Assembly: GCA_001704575.1 (NCBI GenBank)
Contig: MCAW01000010.1
Location: forward strand, 1-64,000
Origin: Methylophilales bacterium LSUCC0135
Lineage (GTDB): Bacteria; Pseudomonadota; Gammaproteobacteria; Burkholderiales; Methylophilaceae
Direction: 5' to 3'
DNA: 64,000 nt
Positions within the stretch are counted from its first letter, which is position 1. Each line of letters opens with the position of its first letter. The notes beneath the pieces were generated by a model. The model ran no database searches, was not told the origin of the DNA, and saw only the letters and a program-made list of their open reading frames with translations. Below, one piece after another: positions 34,526-47,302 of the stretch. Both the position numbers and the translations under genes were made by a program.

Positions 34526-35863
34526 TCAGTACTTTGTTACTCCCGGAATCCATGTCGTACCTGCCAGCGGTACCTTGGCCATGGCGGAGGCTTCAACGGT
34601 CAGCGCCACCAGATCTTCCGGCTCCAGGTTATGCAGATGCGATTTGCCGCAAGCACGCGCGATGACTTGCGCTTCCATCGTCATGACCGAGAGGTAGTTG
34701 GCGAGGCGGCGGCCGGCCTGAACCGGATCAACACGCTTCATCAGTTCCGGATCCTGCGTGGTGATACCGGCAGGGTCACGTCCTTCGTGCCAATCGTCGT
34801 AGGCGCCGGCAGTAGTGCCGAGCTTCTTGTACTCCTCTTCCAGATGCGGGTCATTGTCGCCCAGCGCCACCAATGCGGCAGTACCGATGGCAACGGCGTC
34901 AGCGCCCAGCGCCAGGGCTTTCGCCACGTCTGCGCCGTTACGGATACCGCCGGAAACGATGAGCTGAACCTTGCGGTGCATGCCCATATCCTGCAGCGCC
35001 TGCACGGCCGGACGGATCGCCGCCAGAATTGGGATACCGACGTGTTCGATAAAGACTTCCTGCGTTGCCGCAGTACCGCCCTGCATACCGTCCAGCACGA
35101 CGACATCGGCACCGGCCTTGACTGCCAGCGCGACGTCGAAGTAAGGACGGGTCGCGCCAACCTTGACGTAGATGGGTTTTTCCCAATCGGTGATCTCACG
35201 CAGCTCGGCGATCTTGATCTCCAGATCGTCCGGGCCGGTCCAGTCAGGGTGACGGCAGGAAGAACGCTGGTCGATGCCTTCCGGCAGGCAACGCATCTTG
35301 GCGACGCGCTTGGTGATCTTCTGGCCCAGCAGCATGCCGCCGCCGCCAGGTTTTGCGCCTTGACCGACGACAACTTCAATCGCATCGGCCTTGCGCAAGT
35401 CGTCCGGGTTCATGCCGTAACGCGATGGCAGATACTGGTAAACCAGCGTGGTCGAATGACCGCGCTCTTCCGGGGTCATGCCGCCGTCACCGGTGGTGGT
35501 GCTGGTACCTACCGCAGATGCGCCACGACCGAGAGATTCCTTGGCCGGGCCGGACAGCGCGCCGAAACTCATGCCGGCGATGGTCACCGGAGTTTTCAGG
35601 TGAATCGGCTTCTTGGCGAAACGGGTGCCGAGTACGACATCGGTACCACATTTTTCACGATAGCCTTCCAGCGGATAACGGCTGACCGAAGCGCCGAGGA
35701 AAAGCAGATCGTCGAAATGCGGCAGCTTGCGCTTGGCACCGCCACCACGGATGTCGTAAATACCGGTCGCGGCTGCGCGGCGGATTTCGGACATGGTGGA
35801 TGTATCGAAAGTAGCGGAGAAACGTGGCTCCGTCTGCGGAATTTTATGTGACTGGTCGCTCAT
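34526..35863 (-). CDS. mgsC: N-methylglutamate synthase subunit C (FMN glutamate-synthase domain)
   Basis: Subunit that carries out the reductive transfer of the methylamine group to 2-oxoglutarate. It is 445 residues from the ATG at 35863 (MSDQSHKIPQ), with AGGAG 9-10 bases upstream; the frame extending to 36100 is an overcall inside mgsB. It matches the FMN-binding central part of glutamate synthase: PVTIAGMSFGALSG, GTSTTTGDGGMTPEER, GQGAKPGGGGMLLG, VVVLDGMQGGTAATQE and LIVSGGIRNGADVAKALALGADAV. It is the last gene of the operon and lies one base after mgsB. A strong terminator follows. Confidence 0.93.
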   Translation of the reverse strand: MSDQSHKIPQTEPRFSATFDTSTMSEIRRAAATGIYDIRGGGAKRKLPHFDDLLFLGASVSRYPLEGYREKCGTDVVLGTRFAKKPIHLKTPVTIAGMSFGALSGPAKESLGRGASAVGTSTTTGDGGMTPEERGHSTTLVYQYLPSRYGMNPDDLRKADAIEVVVGQGAKPGGGGMLLGQKITKRVAKMRCLPEGIDQRSSCRHPDWTGPDDLEIKIAELREITDWEKPIYVKVGATRPYFDVALAVKAGADVVVLDGMQGGTAATQEVFIEHVGIPILAAIRPAVQALQDMGMHRKVQLIVSGGIRNGADVAKALALGADAVAIGTAALVALGDNDPHLEEEYKKLGTTAGAYDDWHEGRDPAGITTQDPELMKRVDPVQAGRRLANYLSVMTMEAQVIARACGKSHLHNLEPEDLVALTVEASAMAKVPLAGTTWIPGVTKY

Positions 35864-35864
35864 T

Positions 35865-36557
35865 TTAGTAGGCTCCTGCATTGTCGACGTGGAAGTGATA
35901 GAGGGTACGGGCAGAGCCATAGAGCTTAAAGCTGTCTGGATCGACATCGCCGTGACCGGATCTAGACAGCAGATCGACCAGAATCTTGCGTTCCTCCGGA
36001 CCCATGACCTTTTCTTCGCAGTCCGCGCCCAGGCTCTTGACCTTGCCGCGAACGAACAGGCGGGCTTCGTAAATGGAGTCGCCCAGACCTTCGCCGGCAT
36101 CGCCTAGAATGACCAGATTGCCGGCTTGTGCCATGAAGGCAGAGAAGCTGCCGACCGAGCCGCCGACCACGATGTCGGCACCCTTGAGCGCAATCGCGCA
36201 GCGCAGACCGGCGTCACCGTCGATCACCAGCAGACCGCCGTTGGCAGTCGCACCGGCAGCATTGGAGGCAAAGCCCTTGACGTGCACGTGGCCGGACATC
36301 ATGTTTTCAGCGACACCGCTGCCGACACTGCCTTCCACCACGACCTTGGCCAACTGGTTCATGCCTGCGGCGTAGTAACCGGCATGGCCCTTGATGGTGA
36401 CCTCGACATCGGCCTTGAGACCGACGGCGATGTTGTGCGCGCCATTCGGATTTTCAATGACGATGGACTTGCCGTTCAGCGTGCTGGCATCGCCATGCAG
36501 GAACTGGTTGATTTCGCGCAGCGGCTTCTTGTCCAGATCGAATGTTAGAGTTTCCAT
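35865..36557 (-). CDS. mgsB: N-methylglutamate synthase subunit B (GXGXG domain)
   Basis: A 230-residue protein made almost only of the right-handed beta-helix (GXGXG) domain found at the C-terminus of glutamate synthase large subunits; repeats such as GHAGYYAAGMNQ, GSVGSGVAENMMSG and GGSVGSFSAFMAQAG are visible. In the synthase it is thought to have a structural role between amidotransferase and FMN parts. The start at 36557 is preceded by AAGGAG and overlaps mgsA by 13 bases; mgsC follows after one base. The split of glutamate synthase into three small proteins is characteristic of the N-methylglutamate pathway. Confidence 0.92.
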   Translation of the reverse strand: METLTFDLDKKPLREINQFLHGDASTLNGKSIVIENPNGAHNIAVGLKADVEVTIKGHAGYYAAGMNQLAKVVVEGSVGSGVAENMMSGHVHVKGFASNAAGATANGGLLVIDGDAGLRCAIALKGADIVVGGSVGSFSAFMAQAGNLVILGDAGEGLGDSIYEARLFVRGKVKSLGADCEEKVMGPEERKILVDLLSRSGHGDVDPDSFKLYGSARTLYHFHVDNAGAY

Positions 36558-37441
36558 ACATACATCTCCTTAGGGGAAGGTTCGAATACCTTCGCGTTTT
36601 TGATATCGGGCAGATGCGCCAGCGAACGGAATTCCGAAGCGATGGCGACATAATCGTCATGCTCGGCAATGATGGCGGGCTTGCAAGCGAACGGGTCGCG
36701 TACCAGCGCCAGCTGGTCACGGGTACCCATCAGCAGGGTGTAGAAGCCATCCAGCTCATCGAAGCCGTGGTTCAGCGCAGTTTCCAGATCGTCGCCTTCA
36801 CGCATGCGCCATTGCAGGAAACGGCAGGCTGCTTCGGTATCGTTGTCGGTTTCGAACGCGATGCCTTCGTGTTGCAGCTTGCGGCGAATGCTGCTGGCGT
36901 TGGACAGTGAGCCGTTGTGCACCAGGCACCAGTCTTCGCCGGCGGTGAACGGGTGGGCGTGTGCCGGAGTAATCGCGGACTCGGTCGCCATGCGGGTGTG
37001 GCCTACCAGGTGAGTGCCGCTGAAATTCTTGAAGTCGTAGCGCGCAGCAACTTCAGCCGGGGTGCCGACATCCTTGTAGATGTCCATCAGCTGGCCGACG
37101 GAAAGCAGGTGCAGCTTGGGATAGTTTTCCAGCAGCCAGACCTTGACTGTCGCTGGCTCCAGCGTTGTGGTCAGCACGGCATGGTTGGCCTTGGGCTCGA
37201 TCTGTGCCTTGGTACCGAGATGTTTCTCGAACTCGTGGCCGAGTTTGACCCAGTTGAAATCTTCTTCACCGGAGTAAAGGCTTAATTTTCTTGCGTCGTC
37301 CGCAACCGGAGCGCTGAACATCGCGAGGCCGGCAGAATCCGGGCCGCGTTCAGTCATGCCGATCAGCATCGGCAGCATGAGTTCGCCGATATTGGCGCGC
37401 ATTTTCTGGTTCTTCACCAGCAGTCCAACAATTCCACACAT
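36545..37441 (-). CDS. mgsA: N-methylglutamate synthase subunit A (class II amidotransferase)
   Basis: A 298-residue Ntn-type glutaminase domain with the catalytic Cys2 at the N-terminus (MCGIVGLLVKNQ). MTERGPDSAGLAMFS, GHTRMATESAITPAHAHPF and CLVHNGSLSNASSIRRKL are class II amidotransferase motifs. In this pathway it probably hydrolyses gamma-glutamylmethylamide and channels methylamine to MgsC. It is separated from gmaS by 176 bases that contain a palindromic element, the one large gap in the operon apart from the promoter region. It overlaps mgsB. Confidence 0.93.
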   Translation of the reverse strand: MCGIVGLLVKNQKMRANIGELMLPMLIGMTERGPDSAGLAMFSAPVADDARKLSLYSGEEDFNWVKLGHEFEKHLGTKAQIEPKANHAVLTTTLEPATVKVWLLENYPKLHLLSVGQLMDIYKDVGTPAEVAARYDFKNFSGTHLVGHTRMATESAITPAHAHPFTAGEDWCLVHNGSLSNASSIRRKLQHEGIAFETDNDTEAACRFLQWRMREGDDLETALNHGFDELDGFYTLLMGTRDQLALVRDPFACKPAIIAEHDDYVAIASEFRSLAHLPDIKNAKVFEPSPKEMYVWKL

Positions 37442-37484
37442 AATGATCTCCTGATAAGTACTGCTAAATTTTTAGTAAACGCTT

Positions 37485-37607
37485 ATTAAATGGTTACGCG
37501 AACGAATTGCTGCGTTGCGCGGTACTCACAACCTCGCCGTATAACGCATACTGTCTCGGCTGCTGCGTTCCGGGCGCCTTGCACTTCATCCCGCTCACTC
37601 ATTTAAT
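37485..37607. repeat. palindromic intergenic element, family B copy 2
   Basis: About 123 bases between gmaS and mgsA, bounded by ATTAAATG (37485-37492) and CATTTAAT (37600-37607). On the minus strand the inside contains AAGGCGCCCGGAACGCAG, AGACAGTA, ATACGGCGAG and AACGCAG in the same order as the element at 12463-12548. The terminal repeats differ between the two copies while the core is shared. The element interrupts an operon that otherwise has very short gaps. Confidence 0.7.
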
Positions 37608-37617
37608 CAGTGCTTCC

Positions 37618-38955
37618 TTAGAAAAACTCGGCGTAACGTTCGATTTCCCACTCGGAAACGTGACGCTGGTATTCCACCCATTCCATCGATTTGAGGTTGA
37701 TAAACTCTTCCGAGAGCCCGTTGCCCAGCGCGTCGCGCAGGACCTTGTCTTCTTCGAAAGCACGGATCGCTTCGTTCAGGTTCTGCGGCAGGATGCCGAT
37801 GCCGTGTTCCTTCAGCTGCGCAGGCGAGTAGTCGTAGAGGTTGTCTGCGTTGCCCTTGCCCGGATCGAGTTCGCGCTCGACACCATCCATGCCGGCAGCG
37901 ATCAGTGCTGCAGTAGCAAGATAGGGGTTGCAGCCGCCGTCCGGCAGACGCAACTCAAGGCGGCCATAAGGAATGCGCACCATGGTCGAACGGTTGTTGA
38001 TGCCGTAGGAAATATAGGCCGGTGCCCAGGTGGCGCCGGTGAGGGAGCGGCCGACGACCAGTCGCTTGTAAGAGTTGACGGTCGGTGCTGCCAGTGCAGT
38101 CAGTGCAGGCGCGTGCGCCAGAATGCCGCCGAGGAAGTGATAGGCCAGTTTGGACAAGCCGTGGCCAGATTTGTCGCTGTCGTCATGGAACAGGCTCTTC
38201 TTGCCATCGCCAATCGACATGTGGATGTGCATGCCGTTGCCGGGGCGATTGCTGAATGGCTTGGGCATCAGCGAGCAGATCATGCCCATCTGATTGGCGA
38301 TTTCACTCGCCGCCATCTTGAACATGATGAAATCATCGGCGCTCTTGAGGCAGTCGGCATAGGTGTAGTTGATTTCGAACTGTGCGTTCGCATCTTCATG
38401 GTCGATCTGGTAGACATCCAGACCGGCAGCGATTAGCGCTTCCGTCAGTTTCTCCAGATACGCCGACTGGCGCGTAATGCCCTTGTAGTCGTAGCAAGGC
38501 TTTTGCAGCGTGTCGGTCGGGTCGACCGGATGAATCCTGCCCTGTTCGTCTTTCTTCAGCAGGGAGAACTCGGGCTCAAGACCGGTGTAGAGGGTCCAGC
38601 CACGCTTGCTCAGACGCTCGACCTGACGCTTCAGGACGACGCGGGAGTCGAATTCATACGGCTTGCCATCGACATGACCGTCACAGATCAAACGGGCATA
38701 GCCGGGCTGCCAGGGAATCAGCGAAAGCGTTGAAAGATCGCCGACCGCCATGTAATCGTGGCCGCCGTTTGGAGAAATCCCCATACCGCAAATTGCACCG
38801 CCTGCAAAACCTGCACCGGCGGTCAGAATGTCCTCAACATGTGCGGCCGGAACCGACTTGACCTTGGCCACACCGTGGATATCGACAAATTGCGCCAAAA
38901 CGTACTTGACGTTGTTGTCCTTCAAGAACTTCTTTGCTTCTGCCAACGATTTCAT
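37618..38955 (-). CDS. gmaS: gamma-glutamylmethylamide synthetase
   Basis: Glutamine-synthetase family ligase joining methylamine to glutamate with ATP; first step of methylamine use by this pathway. At 445 residues it is near the type III glutamine-synthetase-like length used by GmaS. Motifs: EPEFSLL with metal-binding Glu, [26 protein letters not shown] with catalytic His, and [28 protein letters not shown]. The placement between the dehydrogenase and synthase genes is what separates it from ordinary glutamine synthetase. It lies 21 bases after mgdD. Confidence 0.93.
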
Positions 38956-38976
38956 GCGTATCTCCCTGAAAATGTC

Positions 38977-39660
38977 TTATTTCTTGAAATGGCAGGAGAG
39001 GCCGACTGCACCACCCCCGAGTTCTTTGGCGACTTCCATCAACATGTCCCACATATAGGGACCATAGGTTCCATCGCACCAAATCCGGTACACCTGCTGT
39101 CCGTTCAGCGTCTGACGTAGCAGCGTGGCCGAGATACCGGCGACTTGCGTCATCACCACCGCGTTGGCGCCGAGCGCGCTGTCGCGCAGGTCCAGCATGC
39201 AAAGTTCGGAGAGCAGGTCGAGCGCTTCGCTACCGCTCAGGATAAAAGCGGCATCCGCACGCTGCACCTTGTATACGCCGGCAACCTCGGCCTGCTTGAA
39301 GCCCTTTGCAAGTAGCGCGCAGGTGTCGCCGCTGTGCTGGTCTTCGAGCAGGAATTCGCTGCCGCCGAGTCTGAGAATCATGGTGCCGGGCGCAGCATCA
39401 TCCCAGCTGTTGATCGCAGCCGGTGTGTTCATACCCTTGGCTGCCAGCCATGCGGCGGCTTGCGGCCCTTTGACCGAGAAGCGCTGGAAGCAGCTCACAT
39501 CGGTGACGCCGAGCAGCTGCTTGCGGGCGTTTTCGACGCTGGCGCCCTCGAATTCAAGCGCGACTTCCATGCCGTTCAACTCGCCCATCTTCGGCTTCAA
39601 GGCCTGCTGGGCATACGCCACCGGCGTTTTTCTGATCATTACTGTCTGAGGTGTAGTCAT
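38977..39660 (-). CDS. mgdD: N-methylglutamate dehydrogenase subunit D (SoxG-like)
   Basis: A 227-residue homologue of the gamma subunit of heterotetrameric sarcosine oxidase. It shows the short GcvT-like fold: TDVSCFQRFSVKGPQAAAWLAAKGM, FILSGSEALDLLSELCMLDLR and VMTQVAGISATLLRQTL. It belongs to the complex that oxidises N-methylglutamate to glutamate plus a C1 unit. It starts 12 bases after mgdC and ends 21 before gmaS, so all are co-transcribed. Confidence 0.92.
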   Translation of the reverse strand: MTTPQTVMIRKTPVAYAQQALKPKMGELNGMEVALEFEGASVENARKQLLGVTDVSCFQRFSVKGPQAAAWLAAKGMNTPAAINSWDDAAPGTMILRLGGSEFLLEDQHSGDTCALLAKGFKQAEVAGVYKVQRADAAFILSGSEALDLLSELCMLDLRDSALGANAVVMTQVAGISATLLRQTLNGQQVYRIWCDGTYGPYMWDMLMEVAKELGGGAVGLSCHFKK

Positions 39661-39672
39661 GTCCTGATTCCT

Positions 39673-42561
39673 TTAATCCGCATTGAAGAACGGCGTTTCA
39701 ACGACAGTCGCCTTGACGATGGAACCGTTGTCGGTGCGGATATCGAACACCATGCCGGGCTGATTCCTGGCCGGGTCGACATACGCCAGACCGATGATGC
39801 GTTTCGCTGCCGGACTGTAGGCAACGCTGGTGACACGGCCCTTGATGGCGGCGCCGTCAATCACGAGGTTACAGTCCTGCGGCATTTCACCGGAATACTC
39901 CTGAGGGAGTACAAACGGCACCAGCAGCTTGGCGACTTTTTTCTTGCCGATGATCTTGAGGCTGCGCTGGCCGATGAAGAATGGCTTGTCCATGGCCAGC
40001 GCTGATTCGGCGCCGATTTCATATGGATTGGTGAGGCCGTCGGTGTCGTATCCTGCCAGGTGATGGCCCAGTTCCAGACGCAGCAGACGCTGCGCATCGG
40101 TACCGAATGGACGAATACCATAGCCGGCACCGGCCTCCATCAAGGCCAGCCAGAAGTTGAGGCCGTGCGCACTCGGCATGTGGATTTCGTAGGCGAGGTG
40201 AGCGACAAAGCCAACCCGCACGAGCCGTACCGGCACACCCAGCACTTCAGTCTCGCAGGCGGCGCCCATCGGGAAAGCCGCATCGGACAGGTCGATACTG
40301 ACCAGCTTGCCGACGATATCGCGTGCAGCCGGGCCGGCGACATTGATCAGGCCGTAGGCGCCGGTGACGTTGACCAGCCCGACATTGAGCTGCCATATCT
40401 GCAGCCAGCGCTGCATTTCGCGGTACACCGCAGCGGCGTTGGAGGTGCTGATGGTGAGATAGAACAGTTCGTCGGCCAGGCGGCTGGCGATGCCGTCGTC
40501 AACAACCACACCGGCTTCATCCAGCAACAGCGCGTAACGTGTAGTGCCCACTTTCTGGTCGGCAAACTTGCCGGTATAGAAACGCTCGAGGAACAGCGCC
40601 GCATCGGGGCCGCACACTTCGATCTTGCCCAGCGTGCCGCTATCGATGATGCCTGCCGTCTGCCGCACGGCCTGCGCTTCTTCCTGCACCAGCTGCTGCT
40701 TGCTCTTGCCGGCCTGCTGGTAATAGGCGGGACGCGACCAGGCACCGACATCGACGAAGAACGCCCCGGCGGACTCATGCCAGGCATGGATCGAGGTCAG
40801 GCGGTGCGAATGGAAACTGCGGCCGCCGAGATGACCGAACGGTGTCGGGTGGAAGAACGGACGAGCGGTGGTAGTGCCGATTTTCTCGACCGGCAGGTTG
40901 CGGATCTTCGCCAAAATGCGGATGGCATTCATGTTGGAGTGCTTGCCCTGGCTCGGCCCCATGCCGACCGTGGTGAAACGCTTCATCAGCTCGATATTGT
41001 CGAAGCCTTCCTTGGCGGCGTTGACGAAGTCCTTGATCTGGATGTCTTCATCGAAGTCGACGAAATTCTTGCCCTTTGGATGTTCGACGAACGGATAAGG
41101 ATGGCTGGGTGACGGACCCTGATGCTTGTCGACCGTCACTTCTGGAGGCCGCTTGCCGAGATAGCGCAGCACTTCGGCGGCTGCACGCATGCCATCATTG
41201 GCACGTTGCTGCAGGCAATAAACTCCGTTGACGCGGCCGGCGGCAAACACGCCCGCGGGCAGACAGTTGGGCACGAATTGCTGGATGTCGTTGCTGTAGC
41301 CCATGCCGGTACCGGCTTGATAGAGCAGCGCAGCAGCCGGTGCCCAGCCCGCACTCATGGCAATGCCGTCGCAATCGATATTCACCGATTTGCCGGGGTT
41401 GGCCTGACCGGTGGCTTCATCGAACGGGAAGATCACCGCACCCTGTACGCCCAGCTTGTCGCTGGTAGCTACCGCTTCGTAGACGCAGCTGGCCGGATAA
41501 ATCTTGACGCCCTTGCGCACCAGTTCGCCGACCAGATCATCACGTTGGCCTTCGGCACGCATATCGACCAATGCTGCCACCTTGGCGCCGGCGTTGAGCA
41601 GGTCGAGCGCGACACGGTAGCCGTGCGCATTGGCGGTAACAACCACGCCCTTGTTGAAAGGCTTGACCGCATAACGGTTGATCAGGCGCTGCGCTGCCGA
41701 GCCGAGCATGACGCCGGGCAGATCGTTGTTGTGGAATACCGGCGGCTGTTCGAACACGCCGGTGGCGACGATCACGGCCTTGGCACGCACGCGGGTGATG
41801 CCCTTGGCAGTTACTACCGGCACCATGTGATCGGCGTAATAACCGGCTGCATAGGCACCGGTATAAACATGAATATTGGCGGTTTCCGCGACCTTGGCTT
41901 GCAGTTCCTCCAGTATCTTTCTGGAAGATTCACTGCCGGCGTAGTCATAGGTTAGACTGCCGCCCAGACTTTGATTCTCGTCCACCAGCACCACTTCCAG
42001 ACCTTCGGAAGCCGCTGCCAGCGCAGCAGAAAGTCCGGAAGGACCGGCGCCGATCACCAGCAGATCACAGTGCTTGTTGAGCTTGCGCTTGGTGATGCGG
42101 GGATAGTTGAAATTGACCACGCCCAGACCTGCCGCCTTGCGGATGATCTTTTCCCAGAACGGGAACAGCCTGGCCGGTTTGTGGAATGCCTTGTAATAGA
42201 AGCCCACCGGCAACAGCGGGGAGAGAGAATCGATGTACTTGTTCTTGTCCTTGAGCACGCCGCCGTCGGTATTGACCGCATCGAGCTGCATGCCGTTGCC
42301 CAAGGCAACGACGTCGCCACGGATATTGGTATCGTTGCCGTCGGTCACCATGACGTTGACGTCATGGTTGGCAAAACTCAGCACACCGCGTGCGCGGTGA
42401 TACTTGAAGCTGCGGCCCAGCACCTTGACACCGGCAGCCCACAGCGCGCTGGTGATGGTGTCGCCCTCGTAACCGCTGTATTCCTGGCCTTCGAAAGTGA
42501 ACCGCACGGTCTTGTCGCGGCTGATCCACTCACCTGCCTGTTTCGGCAATCTCATGCTCAT
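39673..42561 (-). CDS. mgdC: N-methylglutamate dehydrogenase subunit C (SoxA-like, large)
   Basis: A 962-residue fusion like the alpha subunit of sarcosine oxidase. Residues 1-100 resemble a hydrogen-cyanide-synthase-A/2Fe-2S-type entry domain (FTFEGQEYSGYEGDTITSALWAAGV). Residues about 160-500 are a NAD/FAD disulfide-reductase fold with CDLLVIGAGPSGLSAALAAASEG, and residues about 590-960 are a GcvT-type folate-binding domain that can accept the C1 unit as methylenetetrahydrofolate. It overlaps mgdB by 4 bases. This subunit explains how methylamine carbon may enter tetrahydrofolate directly, besides release as formaldehyde. Confidence 0.93.
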   Translation of the reverse strand: MSMRLPKQAGEWISRDKTVRFTFEGQEYSGYEGDTITSALWAAGVKVLGRSFKYHRARGVLSFANHDVNVMVTDGNDTNIRGDVVALGNGMQLDAVNTDGGVLKDKNKYIDSLSPLLPVGFYYKAFHKPARLFPFWEKIIRKAAGLGVVNFNYPRITKRKLNKHCDLLVIGAGPSGLSAALAAASEGLEVVLVDENQSLGGSLTYDYAGSESSRKILEELQAKVAETANIHVYTGAYAAGYYADHMVPVVTAKGITRVRAKAVIVATGVFEQPPVFHNNDLPGVMLGSAAQRLINRYAVKPFNKGVVVTANAHGYRVALDLLNAGAKVAALVDMRAEGQRDDLVGELVRKGVKIYPASCVYEAVATSDKLGVQGAVIFPFDEATGQANPGKSVNIDCDGIAMSAGWAPAAALLYQAGTGMGYSNDIQQFVPNCLPAGVFAAGRVNGVYCLQQRANDGMRAAAEVLRYLGKRPPEVTVDKHQGPSPSHPYPFVEHPKGKNFVDFDEDIQIKDFVNAAKEGFDNIELMKRFTTVGMGPSQGKHSNMNAIRILAKIRNLPVEKIGTTTARPFFHPTPFGHLGGRSFHSHRLTSIHAWHESAGAFFVDVGAWSRPAYYQQAGKSKQQLVQEEAQAVRQTAGIIDSGTLGKIEVCGPDAALFLERFYTGKFADQKVGTTRYALLLDEAGVVVDDGIASRLADELFYLTISTSNAAAVYREMQRWLQIWQLNVGLVNVTGAYGLINVAGPAARDIVGKLVSIDLSDAAFPMGAACETEVLGVPVRLVRVGFVAHLAYEIHMPSAHGLNFWLALMEAGAGYGIRPFGTDAQRLLRLELGHHLAGYDTDGLTNPYEIGAESALAMDKPFFIGQRSLKIIGKKKVAKLLVPFVLPQEYSGEMPQDCNLVIDGAAIKGRVTSVAYSPAAKRIIGLAYVDPARNQPGMVFDIRTDNGSIVKATVVETPFFNAD

Positions 42562-42881
42562 ATTGATTGCTCCGTACCTGTAGTCTGATTTTTATTGGGC
42601 TTGCTGCCAGTCTGATCCTTACCGCTCGGGTCCTTGCCGAACAAGTAGGTCTTCAACACTTCATCGGTCAGCGTGTTGCGTTCGGCGATGAACCAGGTGC
42701 CGCTCGGCCCGTGGTACCACCACTCTTTTTTCACGCCGGGGGCGTTATCGCGGTAGTGCACGTAACCGGCCCACTCGTAGTCATCGCTGCCATCGGGGTC
42801 CGGCATCTCGCGATACTCGCCGCCGAAGAGGAATTCGCTTAATGGCCTGACGCCATTCATCGGACATTCAAGAAGTTTCAT
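42558..42881 (-). CDS. mgdB: N-methylglutamate dehydrogenase subunit B (SoxD-like)
   Basis: A 107-residue delta-type subunit from the ATG at 42881 (MKLLECPMNGVRPLSEF); the 22 residues upstream in frame are highly basic and not family-like. SEFLFGGEYREMPDP, YVHYRDNAPGVKKEWWYHGPSGTWFIAERNT are the conserved SoxD features. Sarcosine-oxidase SoxD has a CxxC-type zinc site, but here only one Cys remains (ECPMNG), as seen in the N-methylglutamate version. It lies 34 bases after the mgdA stop. Confidence 0.88.
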   Translation of the reverse strand: MKLLECPMNGVRPLSEFLFGGEYREMPDPDGSDDYEWAGYVHYRDNAPGVKKEWWYHGPSGTWFIAERNTLTDEVLKTYLFGKDPSGKDQTGSKPNKNQTTGTEQSI

Positions 42882-42915
42882 TTCGTTTCGCCTCTGCTTT
42901 CGACGCTTCTTCGGC

Positions 42916-44157
42916 CTAGTGACCGACCGAAGCAGCGCCCTTTTCACCTGTTAATTCATATTCTTCAAAACGCGACATGCGGAATGAATGAATCAATTCA
43001 TGCGGCCTGTCGTTGGCCATGGTGTACGCCATGGTCTTGCCGCTGATCGGCGTCGCCTTGAAGCCCCAGGTTCCCCAGCCGGCGTCGAGGTAGAAGCCCC
43101 TGACCGGCGTGTTGCCCATGATCGGCGCGAAGTCCGGCGTGATGTCGGCCATGCCAGCCCACTGACGGACGATCTTGACGTTGGAGAGGAAGGGGAACAT
43201 GTCGACGATGTGCGAAGTGAGCCCTTCGACAAAATCGAAGGTCGAGCGGGTCGAATGCACTTCGTAAGGATCGAGCGAAGAACCCATGACCAGCTCGCCG
43301 CGCGAAGACTGGCTGACGTAAACATGCAGGCTGCCGGAAACGAGGATCGTATCGAGCCAGGGCTTCATCGGTTCGCTGACGCAAGCCTGTAGCGGGTGGA
43401 TGACGATAGGCGTTTGCAGGTTGACCATCTTGCACACGCGCGGCGTGAAACCGGCGACGGCAGACAGCACCTTGCCGGTAGCAATATAGCCGCGGCTGGT
43501 ATGCACGCCCTGCACCCTGCCGTCCTTGACGTCGATGCCCTGCACTTCAGTGTTCTGGAAGATTTCAACGCCCATGCTGTCGGCGCCACGTGCATAACCC
43601 CAGGCGACCGCATCGTGACGGGCAATGGAACCGGGTTCGTGATAGAGCGCGCCCTGAATCGGCGCCTTGCCGCTGCAGGAAATATCGAGCTGCGGGCAGG
43701 CACGCGAGATTTCATCGGTACCGACGACGCGGCTCTTGACACCGACATGCTTGTTCACCTCGGCGCGCCAGCGCATGGTACGCATCGCAGATTCCGAGTG
43801 TGCCAGCGTGAAGTGACCGCGATTTGAGTAGAACAGATTGATGTCGAGCTCGGTGGAAAGCCCTTCGAACAATTTGACGCTGGCATCGTAGAAGCTGACG
43901 CCGTCTGGCGTCAGGTAGTTGGAGCGCACGATGGTGGTGTTGCGGCCGGTATTGCCGCCGCCGATATACCCACGCTCCAGCACCGCGACGTTGGTAATGC
44001 CATGATCCTTGGCGAGGTAATAGGCCGCAGCAAGGCCATGGCCGCCACCGCCGATAATGACCGCGTCATAGGACTTTTTGGGTGTCTGACAATCCCTGAA
44101 AAAACGTGGTTCTTTATACTCACGTCCCAGAGCAAACTTAAGTAGCTGATAAGCCAT
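42916..44157 (-). CDS. mgdA: N-methylglutamate dehydrogenase subunit A (SoxB-like)
   Basis: A 413-residue flavoprotein like the beta subunit of sarcosine oxidase, which holds the catalytic FAD. AVIIGGGGHGLAAAYYLAKDHG (residues about 33-53) is the dinucleotide loop; GYIGGGNTGRNTTIVRSNYL, WAGMADITPDFAPIMGNTPV and LDAGWGTWGFKATPISGKTMA are typical of the family. First gene of the operon; GGGGA lies about 7-8 bases before the ATG. A sigma-70 promoter sits at 44279-44307, leaving a leader of roughly 115 bases. Confidence 0.94.
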   Translation of the reverse strand: MAYQLLKFALGREYKEPRFFRDCQTPKKSYDAVIIGGGGHGLAAAYYLAKDHGITNVAVLERGYIGGGNTGRNTTIVRSNYLTPDGVSFYDASVKLFEGLSTELDINLFYSNRGHFTLAHSESAMRTMRWRAEVNKHVGVKSRVVGTDEISRACPQLDISCSGKAPIQGALYHEPGSIARHDAVAWGYARGADSMGVEIFQNTEVQGIDVKDGRVQGVHTSRGYIATGKVLSAVAGFTPRVCKMVNLQTPIVIHPLQACVSEPMKPWLDTILVSGSLHVYVSQSSRGELVMGSSLDPYEVHSTRSTFDFVEGLTSHIVDMFPFLSNVKIVRQWAGMADITPDFAPIMGNTPVRGFYLDAGWGTWGFKATPISGKTMAYTMANDRPHELIHSFRMSRFEEYELTGEKGAASVGH

Positions 44158-44260
44158 TCAAAATCCCCACAATTAGATATATTCACCCGGTCATCAAAGC
44201 CAATAATGCGGTTTGCGATAGCACTGCCAACCAGAAAAATTATTAACTTTTTTTACCCAC

Positions 44261-44341
44261 ATGAAACTTGTTGGAGTCATTACATCAAAGCCAAAAATCC
44301 TTGTCAAGAGATATATGAAACATTTTTTCTCTAAATGAAAC
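44261..44341. promoter_or_regulatory. three ATGAAAC direct repeats around the mgd promoter
   Basis: ATGAAAC occurs at 44261-44267, 44315-44321 and 44335-44341, in the same orientation, spaced 54 and 20 bases start to start, close to whole turns of the helix. Relative to the predicted mgdA start near 44272 they are centred at about +8, -46 and -66. They are candidate operator sites, perhaps for the XRE-cupin regulator encoded at 44495. Confidence 0.5.
44279..44307 (-). promoter_or_regulatory. sigma-70 promoter of the N-methylglutamate operon
   Basis: On the minus strand, a perfect TTGACA (44302-44307), 17 bases, and TGTAAT (44279-44284, 5 of 6). It lies 122 bases upstream of the mgdA ATG. Surrounding DNA is AT-rich and holds the ATGAAAC repeats. 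Confidence 0.75.
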
Positions 44342-44494
44342 TTTTAATGGAGCAATGCAAATTTTTCAATTAAACTTAATGGGTTAGCGCATCATGGATT
44401 TCGCAAATTTATGATGTTTACAAGCTATGGCGCCTTCAGCCATACTGCTTTTCAAGCAAAAAACATTCACAAAATGCAACAGCACACATAAGGA

Positions 44495-45160
44495 ATGGAT
44501 GGGGAGATGAGTTCTAGCGACAACAGCGCGGTGACAGCTACCGTTTATCAGGATACTCAAGGCAAGGCGCTCGACCGTTTTCTGGGCAACACCATGCACC
44601 AGTTGCGCATACAACACGGCCTCACGTTGGCGGAAGTTTCACAACGGGCGGGCATCAGCCGCGGCATGCTGAGCAAGATCGAGAACGGGCTGTCATCGAC
44701 CAGTCTGGATACGCTGGAGCAGCTCGCCAATGCGCTAGGCGTCACCCTCTCCCGTCTGTTCCAGGGCTACAACCTGCCGAGCAGTGCTGTCCAGTTCGTC
44801 AAGAGCGGCGAAGGCATGGAAGTGGTGCGGCGCGGTACGCGCAGCGGACACACCTATCATCTGCTGGCATACGATCAGGGACCGCAGAAGCTGTTCGAGC
44901 CTTTCCTGATCAGTCTGGAAGACCCGAGCGAGGAGTTCCCCAGTTTCGAGCATCCGGGTACCGAATTCATTTACATGCTGGAAGGCGAAGTCGAATACCG
45001 CGTCGGCGATGAGGTATTCCTGCTGCAACCGGGCGATTCCCTCACCTTCCGCGGCGAAATTCCGCACCGTCCGGAAAAGCACAATATCCTGCCGATACGC
45101 TTTCTCGCCATCATCCACTACGATATGCCGGGCGGCGAAGCGGATAACGAAACAGCATGA
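44495..45160 (+). CDS. XRE-family regulator with C-terminal cupin domain
   Basis: A 221-residue transcription factor. Residues about 25-90 form a helix-turn-helix of the XRE type (LRIQHGLTLAEVSQRAGISRGMLSKIENGLSSTSLDTL), and residues about 130-215 form a cupin barrel (HPGTEFIYMLEGEVEYRVGDEVFLLQPGDSLTFRGEIPH) that could bind a small ligand. Start 44495 or the ATG at 44507 are both possible; AAGGA precedes the first too closely. It is divergent from mgdA across 337 bases that hold the operon promoter, so it is the natural candidate to regulate methylamine oxidation. The GNAT gene overlaps its stop by 4 bases. Confidence 0.88.
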   Translation: MDGEMSSSDNSAVTATVYQDTQGKALDRFLGNTMHQLRIQHGLTLAEVSQRAGISRGMLSKIENGLSSTSLDTLEQLANALGVTLSRLFQGYNLPSSAVQFVKSGEGMEVVRRGTRSGHTYHLLAYDQGPQKLFEPFLISLEDPSEEFPSFEHPGTEFIYMLEGEVEYRVGDEVFLLQPGDSLTFRGEIPHRPEKHNILPIRFLAIIHYDMPGGEADNETA

Positions 45161-45612
45161 GCCAGCCCCGTATCGACGACGCCACTGAAGCCGACATTCC
45201 GGCACTGGTCGGCTTGCTGGCCGAGTTGTTCAGTATCGAGAAGGATTTCCGCCCCGATACCGAAAAACAGATCCGTGGACTCGACATGCTGATCGGCTGC
45301 CCGCAACAGGGCGTGATCAAAGTCGCCAGGGATGAAAACGGCCAGGTCATCGGCATGGTCAGCGCGCAACTGGTGATTTCTACCGCACAGGGCGCACCGT
45401 CGGCCTGGGTCGAAGATATGGTCGTCAGCCCAGCGTGGCGTACGCAGGGATTGGGCAGGACACTACTCGATTCTGCCCTGCAATGGGCCAGTGATAAAGG
45501 CGCAACCCGCGCCCAGCTACTGGTGGATATCGAGAATATTCCGGCTGTCGGCTACTACCGCCATCTGGGCTGGGAATCTACTCAGCTGCAGGCACGGCGC
45601 ATCTTTCTTTAA
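45157..45612 (+). CDS. GNAT family N-acetyltransferase
   Basis: A 151-residue acetyl-CoA-dependent acetyltransferase. VEDMVVSPAWRTQGLGRTLLDSALQWA is motif A with the Q/RxxGxG/A acetyl-CoA loop, and NIPAVGYYRHLGWESTQLQARR is motif B. It overlaps the regulator stop (ATGA), so it is co-expressed with it. Such GNAT proteins occur beside methylamine-pathway genes in some methylotrophs, but the substrate is unknown. Confidence 0.88.
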   Translation: MSQPRIDDATEADIPALVGLLAELFSIEKDFRPDTEKQIRGLDMLIGCPQQGVIKVARDENGQVIGMVSAQLVISTAQGAPSAWVEDMVVSPAWRTQGLGRTLLDSALQWASDKGATRAQLLVDIENIPAVGYYRHLGWESTQLQARRIFL

Positions 45613-45648: not shown

Positions 45649-46230
45649 TCAAGCCACCCAATGGATAGCTGCCTGCATCATTTGCCGAAGGACCGGCCGC
45701 AATGCTGCCGCCCTGGTTTCATCCAGCAAAAATGGCGCTGATTCTTTCATATAGCTGCGCATCGCGGTTTCGAGCTGGACCGCATGCACGCCCTGCCCTG
45801 GAGCACCATAGCGGCGGGTGATATAGCCGCCCTTGAAGCGGCCGTTGGCAACACTGGAATACGGGCTGGCGGCAGCAACCTACGCCAGCACCGCCGTCAG
45901 CGCAGGGTCGCAGGATTGATCATCGGCGCTGCCGATATTCAAGTGCGGCAACTCCCCCTCGAAAAACCTCGGCACCACTGAGCGGATGGAATGCGCATCC
46001 CACAAGACCAAACGTTCGTTGTTTAGCACGGTTTCAGCGTCGGGGCCACTGACATTGACGATATTCAGCGCCGTGACGTCATAAAGGCCGGCGCGGGTTC
46101 TGACCGCAACAACTTCGTCATGCGGATCGGTATGATAGCTCCATGGAATCGGCATACAGTTCCATGTATCGCCATCGAGCTTCGAACCCAGCGCGCGATG
46201 TCTGTCATTAAGTACTGAATTTCTGTTCAT
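45649..46230 (-). pseudogene. chimeric remnant: GcvT-like N-terminus fused to HutG-like C-terminus
   Basis: Reading from 46230, about 71 codons (MNRNSVLNDRHRALGSKL... to NVSGPDAETVLN) match the N-terminus of a GcvT-type aminomethyltransferase. At about 46020 the frame passes directly into NERLVLWDAHSIRSVVPRFF, which is the middle of N-formylglutamate amidohydrolase (HutG). A TAG at 45880-45882 then stops the frame, but HutG-like sequence continues in the same frame (SPYSSVANGRFKGGYITRR, GVHAVQLE) to a TGA at 45649. So two genes were joined by a deletion removing roughly 300 GcvT codons and the first half of hutG, and a nonsense mutation followed. A functional fusion is very unlikely. Confidence 0.85.
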
Positions 46231-46383
46231 GCTCACACCCCCTAACGATCTTGCGGTCAACTTTATCCAAACAGTGGCGCAATCAAAATTCTCTCAAAGT
46301 TGTACTACCTAAGAAGTAAGGGGCAATGTGTGGCGAGAGCGTGCAGCAAGCTTTGATTTCAGTTGCGCGAAACTTTTCGGCCA

Positions 46384-46410
46384 CTAGCACTCTCTTACAG
46401 TGAGTGCTAA
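46384..46410. promoter_or_regulatory. CIRCE operator (HrcA site) upstream of rpoH
   Basis: CTAGCACTC (46384-46392), nine bases, then GAGTGCTAA (46402-46410): 17 of 18 positions of the CIRCE consensus TTAGCACTC-N9-GAGTGCTAA. It lies 28 bases before the rpoH start, so bound HrcA would block initiation or early elongation. hrcA itself is not in the window. Confidence 0.93.

Positions 46411-46438: not shown

Positions 46439-47302
<864 letters not shown>

Follow-up and report, generated by a model that had tools for sequence, protein, structure and literature searches.

The minus-strand interval 45649–46230 of the window—the whole 64,000-nucleotide stretch analysed, from Methylophilales bacterium LSUCC0135 (contig MCAW01000010.1)—joins the start of dmmD in frame to the C-terminal half of hutG and is, with a probability of about 93%, the dead relic of an in-place deletion of some 10.3 kb. 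It is an ordinary deletion-fusion pseudogene; the interpretation offered by a first-pass annotation, in which an aminomethyltransferase was fused to hutG through loss of genes next to the methylamine locus, is supported, and is sharpened by naming the function that was lost. Deletions in bacterial genomes leave gene-fusion pseudogenes, in which two truncated genes are joined after the intervening DNA has gone. The join described here is of the same kind, although an intact control box additionally remains in front of it.

The dmmD remnant (46021–46230, minus strand) comprises the start codon and codons 1–70 of a GcvT-domain parent of ~370 amino acids. In a Pfam search, its residues 1–70 match GCV_T (PF01571) at 2e-12 over profile positions 1–63 of 255. 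The hutG remnant (45652–46020, minus strand) contributes 123 codons, including an in-frame TAG, from the C-terminal half of a parent of ~271 amino acids; it matches FGase (PF05013, Pfam) at 3.7e-26 over profile positions 131–219 of 219 and hutG (TIGR02017, NCBIfam) at 2e-47 over positions 139–261 of 263. In a search of 61 genomes, the two remnants are 83% (dmmD) and 69% (hutG) identical to the intact genes of one relative, G003, which excludes a chance likeness of both halves. Translation places the TAG, the sole internal stop, at 45880–45882 and the TGA closing the hutG frame at 45649–45651, both on the minus strand. The deletion junction lies at approximately 46018–46024 (minus strand) by codon comparison with G003; at the DNA level, homology to G003 stops at 46025 on the dmmD side and starts at 46009 on the hutG side. 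The first-pass description therefore holds for the coordinates (the strand being minus), for the in-frame run of a GcvT-type start into the second half of HutG, which the three profile matches confirm, and for the TAG at 45880 with the hutG frame continuing beyond it. Its figure of ~71 aminomethyltransferase codons falls to ~69–70. The parent is identified as DmmD; the glycine-cleavage T protein was rejected because the G003 orthologue directly precedes DmmA, a reductase, and a DmmC-type protein.

Both halves have lost the core of their domain. Intact DmmD of G003 contains complete GCV_T and GCV_T_C domains, compared with 70 residues in the remnant. A functional HutG would carry a complete FGase domain, which the hutG remnant lacks: relative to the N-formylglutamate deformylase described by TIGR02017, profile positions 139–261 of 263 are kept, the N-terminal half is gone, and a stop codon lies inside what is left. 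The N-terminal motifs S-[MIL]-P-H and RYV[IV]DLNR are missing from it and are present in all eight intact HutG sequences aligned (these came from 10 intact hutG loci, of which those of G038 and G057 gave none). With the disabling TAG and the lost domain cores taken together, the stretch qualifies as a pseudogene. It is present once in its genome, on contig C10 of a draft assembly of 25 contigs and 2.1 Mb (99.82% complete), and the junction and TAG are known from this one assembly of one genome.

The genomes searched with each half comprised the window's own, five of the same genus (three of them only 74%–85% complete), 31 of the family, and 24 from other families of the order. In G003, a member of the same genus, dmmD (G003:C1:443481) and hutG (G003:C1:453954) are both intact and lie on one contig and one strand. 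The order there runs from rpoH through a LysR-like gene, an NAD formate dehydrogenase, a uroporphyrinogen-synthase-like gene, and a nitrate reductase–CysJ-like fusion to dmmD, and onwards through dmmA, dmmB, dmmC, a TorF-like porin, a PAS protein, narX-like, narL-like, and fae-like genes, and hutD to hutG. Beyond hutG stand a GNAT gene, the gene of an HTH-cupin regulator, and then the methylamine genes; the genes shared with the window are arranged and oriented relative to one another as they are there. The names LysR, uroporphyrinogen-synthase-like, dynamin-like, and electron-transfer-flavoprotein-like were assigned by eye. DmmA was named from PF22290/PF22289 and NF041259 (Pfam, NCBIfam), and DmmB is a Fer2/FAD/NAD reductase by the same libraries; the DmmC-type protein carries PF11927 and matches, at 1.6e-138, a heme-dependent oxidative N-demethylase of known structure (5lte), and further genes of the interval match PF08714 (Fae), PF05962 (HutD), TIGR02001 (porin), and NF007935 (NarL).

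The two break points correspond to G003 positions 10274 bases apart. The joined halves thus keep the parental order and orientation, and the DNA that would have stood between them is present in a relative, albeit in one relative. The expectation from the first-pass annotation that intact gcvT-like and hutG genes would be found between the GNAT gene and rpoH is borne out in G003, and this interval supports a deletion that removed genes beside the methylamine locus. The same short fusion in relatives would have spoken against that reading; it is absent from the 60 other genomes, including the five of the same genus, and a wider contig scan, which may omit records very near the window, showed none at three loci.

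Among the 61 genomes, the full intact interval occurs in this place in G003 only. The dmmD-to-hutG order recurs in G016 without hutD, with the HTH-cupin gene ~46 kb away. Elsewhere, hutG is found on the opposite side of dmmD (G022), on the other strand (G031), or far from dmmABC (G011); dmmD is present with no hutG match in G015, G021, and G034, and G005 has methylamine genes and neither dmmD nor hutG. At two loci, L127 (G012) and L128 (G011), dmmA, dmmB, and dmmC-type genes occur without dmmD directly ahead and are preceded by genes judged by eye to be electron-transfer-flavoprotein-like. A separate G011 locus (L129, 434–1656) shows gmaS as two overlapping frames, a possible frameshift. For Methylobacillus sp. 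MM3 (G016), the available part of the genome announcement mentions both the N-methylglutamate pathway and dehydrogenases for tri- and dimethylamine; the word dmm does not occur in that part (PMC6256518).

The ancestral arrangement would have been that of G003: dmmD-dmmA-dmmB-dmmC-porin-PAS-narX-narL-fae-hutD-hutG, then GNAT, HTH-cupin, and the methylamine genes. Breaks at about codon 70 of dmmD and about codon 144 of hutG would then have left ends that were joined in frame. A single deletion event, we infer, could have removed the dimethylamine monooxygenase along with the adjacent two-component system and a paralogue of Fae; the hutG part carries the TAG, which may have arisen before or after the deletion.

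On the left, the scar is flanked by the GNAT acetyltransferase gene (45157–45612, plus strand; 74% identical in G003), next to the HTH-cupin regulator gene (44495–45160, plus strand), which is 88%–89% identical in G003 and there adjoins the same methylamine genes. The retained methylamine locus (34526–44157, minus strand) contains glutamate-synthase-like, type III glutamine-synthetase (gmaS-like), and sarcosine-oxidase-like genes, and presumably encodes the N-methylglutamate pathway. On the right stands rpoH (46439–47302, plus strand; TIGR02392, 2e-122). The start codons of rpoH and dmmD are 209 bases apart in the window compared with 8281 in G003, where ~8 kb (L036, 3241–11390) holding the formate dehydrogenase, the nitrate reductase–CysJ-like fusion, and other genes is present that the window lacks. 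The fusion of nitrate reductase and CysJ-like flavoprotein totals 1399 amino acids, and no close relative of it was found in the window genome (best 34%). This missing block requires a further rearrangement beyond the dmmD–hutG deletion, which may equally be a loss in the window lineage or a gain in G003; the neighbourhood of rpoH also varies among G001, G002, and G005. A short stretch at 46319–46355, to which no strand is assigned, separates the dmmD-side homology (to G003) from the rpoH-side homology (to G001 and G003). Directly upstream of rpoH, at 46385–46409, lies an inverted repeat, TAGCACTC-N9-GAGTGCTA, which is exact in G001, G002, and G003 and not exact in G005; we take it to be CIRCE-like, which suggests HrcA control of rpoH.

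Where the deletion took place is a separate matter from whether it did. Between window positions 37618–45612 and the corresponding G003 locus (L037), the soxB-like protein is 96%, gmaS 91%, and the HTH-cupin regulator 89% identical, compared with 79% for rpoH and 81% for the adjoining dynamin-like protein. Judged by rpoH, G001 is the closest genome (96%), and its 78%-complete assembly shows no close HTH-cupin relative. Part of the methylamine locus may thus have been exchanged laterally between lineages, and the deletion could have occurred in another lineage, the already scarred locus arriving by recombination. We regard this as rather unlikely: the GNAT protein within the same locus is just 74% identical to that of G003, evolutionary rates differ among proteins, no donor bearing the scar was found in the 60 other genomes, and the proximity of the locus to rpoH is common to the window and G003. 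A deletion in place remains the preferred reading.

The genes of the interval that were looked for are missing from the rest of the genome. PF11927, the dmmC type, has no match there and exceeds its cut-off in 10 of the 61 genomes; no close relative of narL was found in the window genome (best NarL-like regulator 32%), and none of the G003 fae paralogue (Fae proteins 42% and 33%). Trimethylamine dehydrogenase (tmd) likewise has no close relative in this genome, the best stretches reaching 29%–34%, and a search with the remnants revealed no further copy of dmmD or hutG. The genome-wide search thus covered the dmmC type, narL, the fae paralogue, dmmD, and hutG, and placed none of these elsewhere in the genome. 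A draft of 25 contigs leaves some room for an artefact of assembly or sequencing, such as contigs wrongly joined or a misread base in the TAG. This is improbable: no other contig holds dmmC, narL, or the fae paralogue, the order and orientation of the halves are those expected after a deletion, and each protein would be short of most of its domain even if the TAG were an error. A functional short fusion protein, or a 116-amino-acid peptide expressed from the retained promoter, is scarcely credible even with start codon, frame as far as the TAG, and upstream box all intact, since neither half holds a complete domain and the frame is interrupted within hutG; a conserved functional fusion was rejected on finding the fusion, open frame or otherwise, in none of the 60 other genomes.

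Differences between a long-dead gene and its intact relatives tend towards equal numbers at the three codon positions. The dmmD remnant (69 codons compared) differs from G003 at 10, 4, and 28 first, second, and third positions, respectively; for the hutG remnant, the corresponding counts are 26, 25, and 60. Parsimony with five outgroups places the window-branch changes in dmmD mostly at position three. In the part of hutG after the TAG, 28 of the codon differences from G003 are nonsynonymous and 25 synonymous; constraint was weaker here, and the faint sign of it that is left counts slightly against a dead gene. The third-position bias and the intact upstream box point to a deletion that is probably recent relative to the split from G003, with the counts being small.

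As to the function lost, the sections available for Ruegeria pomeroyi state that dmmABC degrades dimethylamine to methylamine and that dmmD is needed for growth on methylated amines (PMC5520151); in Paracoccus aminophilus, according to the accessible part of the report, a mutant of each dmm gene does not grow on dimethylamine (PMC4543880). Like the dmmDABC operons as described in those parts, G003 has a GcvT-domain DmmD followed by DmmA, a reductase, and a heme N-demethylase-type DmmC, whereas the window keeps only ~70 codons of dmmD. The window organism would thus have lost the conversion of dimethylamine to methylamine via dimethylamine monooxygenase while keeping its methylamine genes.

What remains intact is a 32-nt box, TACTTCTTAGGTAGTACAACTTTGAGAGAATT, at 46287–46318 (minus strand), upstream of the dmmD start. 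It is the sole match of either box pattern in the window genome. Seven further genomes of this family also carry the box before dmmD, as does a Methylophaga MAG (L117); it is absent at the dmmD-like gene of G037, from another family. An exact pattern matches in 8 of the 61 genomes, once each and always before dmmD or the relic, with no control matches. A wider pattern finds 27 sites in 12 of the 61 genomes, against one match for the reversed control; 26 of the sites lie in 11 genomes other than the window's (L133–L138, L140, L147–L165). Behind 24 of the 27 stand dmmD (8, the scar included), dmmA (2), TMAO-permease-like genes (8), and trimethylamine dehydrogenase (6); the other three (L149, with a 28% permease-like protein, L154, and L165) do not precede the expected genes. 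One of these permeases was tested and exceeds the NF053774 cut-off, and one trimethylamine dehydrogenase was tested and matches 1djn over its full length, the rest of both groups being assigned by similarity. The trimethylamine dehydrogenase of G001 (L169, 7938–10031) aligns in two pieces—a possible frameshift, decay, or assembly error.

Because the wider pattern was drawn from known sites, its fixed positions are conserved by construction; the free positions 3, 6, 8, and 11 nevertheless show one base in 24, 24, 22, and 26 of the 27 sites, respectively. A position weight matrix built from nine dmmD-upstream sites was run on 22 chosen amine-gene-rich loci (406 kb) with a threshold of at least 14 bits. 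Its 18 hits comprised the nine training sites, two independent sites, and seven weaker ones (18–27 bits), compared with 0.05 hits on average in column-permuted and block-shuffled controls. The independent hits precede dmmA in G011 and G012 (46.2 and 41.9 bits), neither of which has a dmmD match. A shortened form of the box, 16 bases long, gave four matches over both strands against 0.02 expected; its match at 39896–39911, within the large sarcosine-oxidase-like gene, was missed by the longer patterns and was taken as chance.

A candidate for the protein that binds the box is encoded nearby. Of the 12 genomes with boxes, 9 (G003, G011, G015, G016, G021, G022, G031, G034, and G035) encode a NarX/NarL-type pair within or close to their amine genes; no narL was found in the parts read of G001 and G012, where boxes are present. 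G035 has no dmmC-type protein and carries the pair, trimethylamine dehydrogenase, and permeases on one contig with two boxes. The closest PDB match of the regulator is NarL (1a04, 6e-64), with a TVKVH.KH stretch shared (KN for KH in G016), and the G003 regulator passes the NarL cut-off of NF007935. For the G003 kinase fragment, the best NCBIfam models are NarQ and NarX, both below cut-off, and no Pfam sensor domain beyond the kinase parts was found in four full-length kinases.

NarL binding sites are inverted heptamers in a 7-2-7 arrangement. The box is likewise an inverted TAC...GTA repeat, which fits the NarL consensus, and such 7-2-7 heptamers occur in genomes with a NarL-type gene near the amine genes (the same 9 of 12), as a candidate operator should; unlike NarL sites, it has a GAGAATT-like element at a fixed distance, and most boxes precede methylated-amine genes. 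We think it somewhat probable, from gene neighbourhood and motif likeness, that a NarX/NarL-type system of the Methylophilaceae near the di- and trimethylamine genes would control the permease, trimethylamine dehydrogenase, and the dmm operon via the 32-nt box (TACYNCYTWRGNRGTA plus the GAGAATT-like element), and that the scar would then be an orphan operator from which regulator and tested targets (dmmC, tmd) have been lost. A plain nitrate response of the pair may hold instead, given that NarQ and NarX are the best models for the kinase and that the regulator exceeds the NarL cut-off. The methylated-amine regulator of R. pomeroyi, as far as the available part of the source describes it, is the AraC-type TmaR (PMC13390433); by comparison, a NarX/NarL-type pair adjoins the dmm operon in G003 and others. 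A search of the open-licence literature, as far as its texts were accessible, found no paper on a NarXL-type methylated-amine regulator in Methylophilaceae.

The scar marks the place where a methylotroph that retained its methylamine genes lost dimethylamine monooxygenase. Tracing its upstream box leads to a likely methylated-amine regulon and a candidate regulator, which would be a more interesting lead than the ordinary scar itself.
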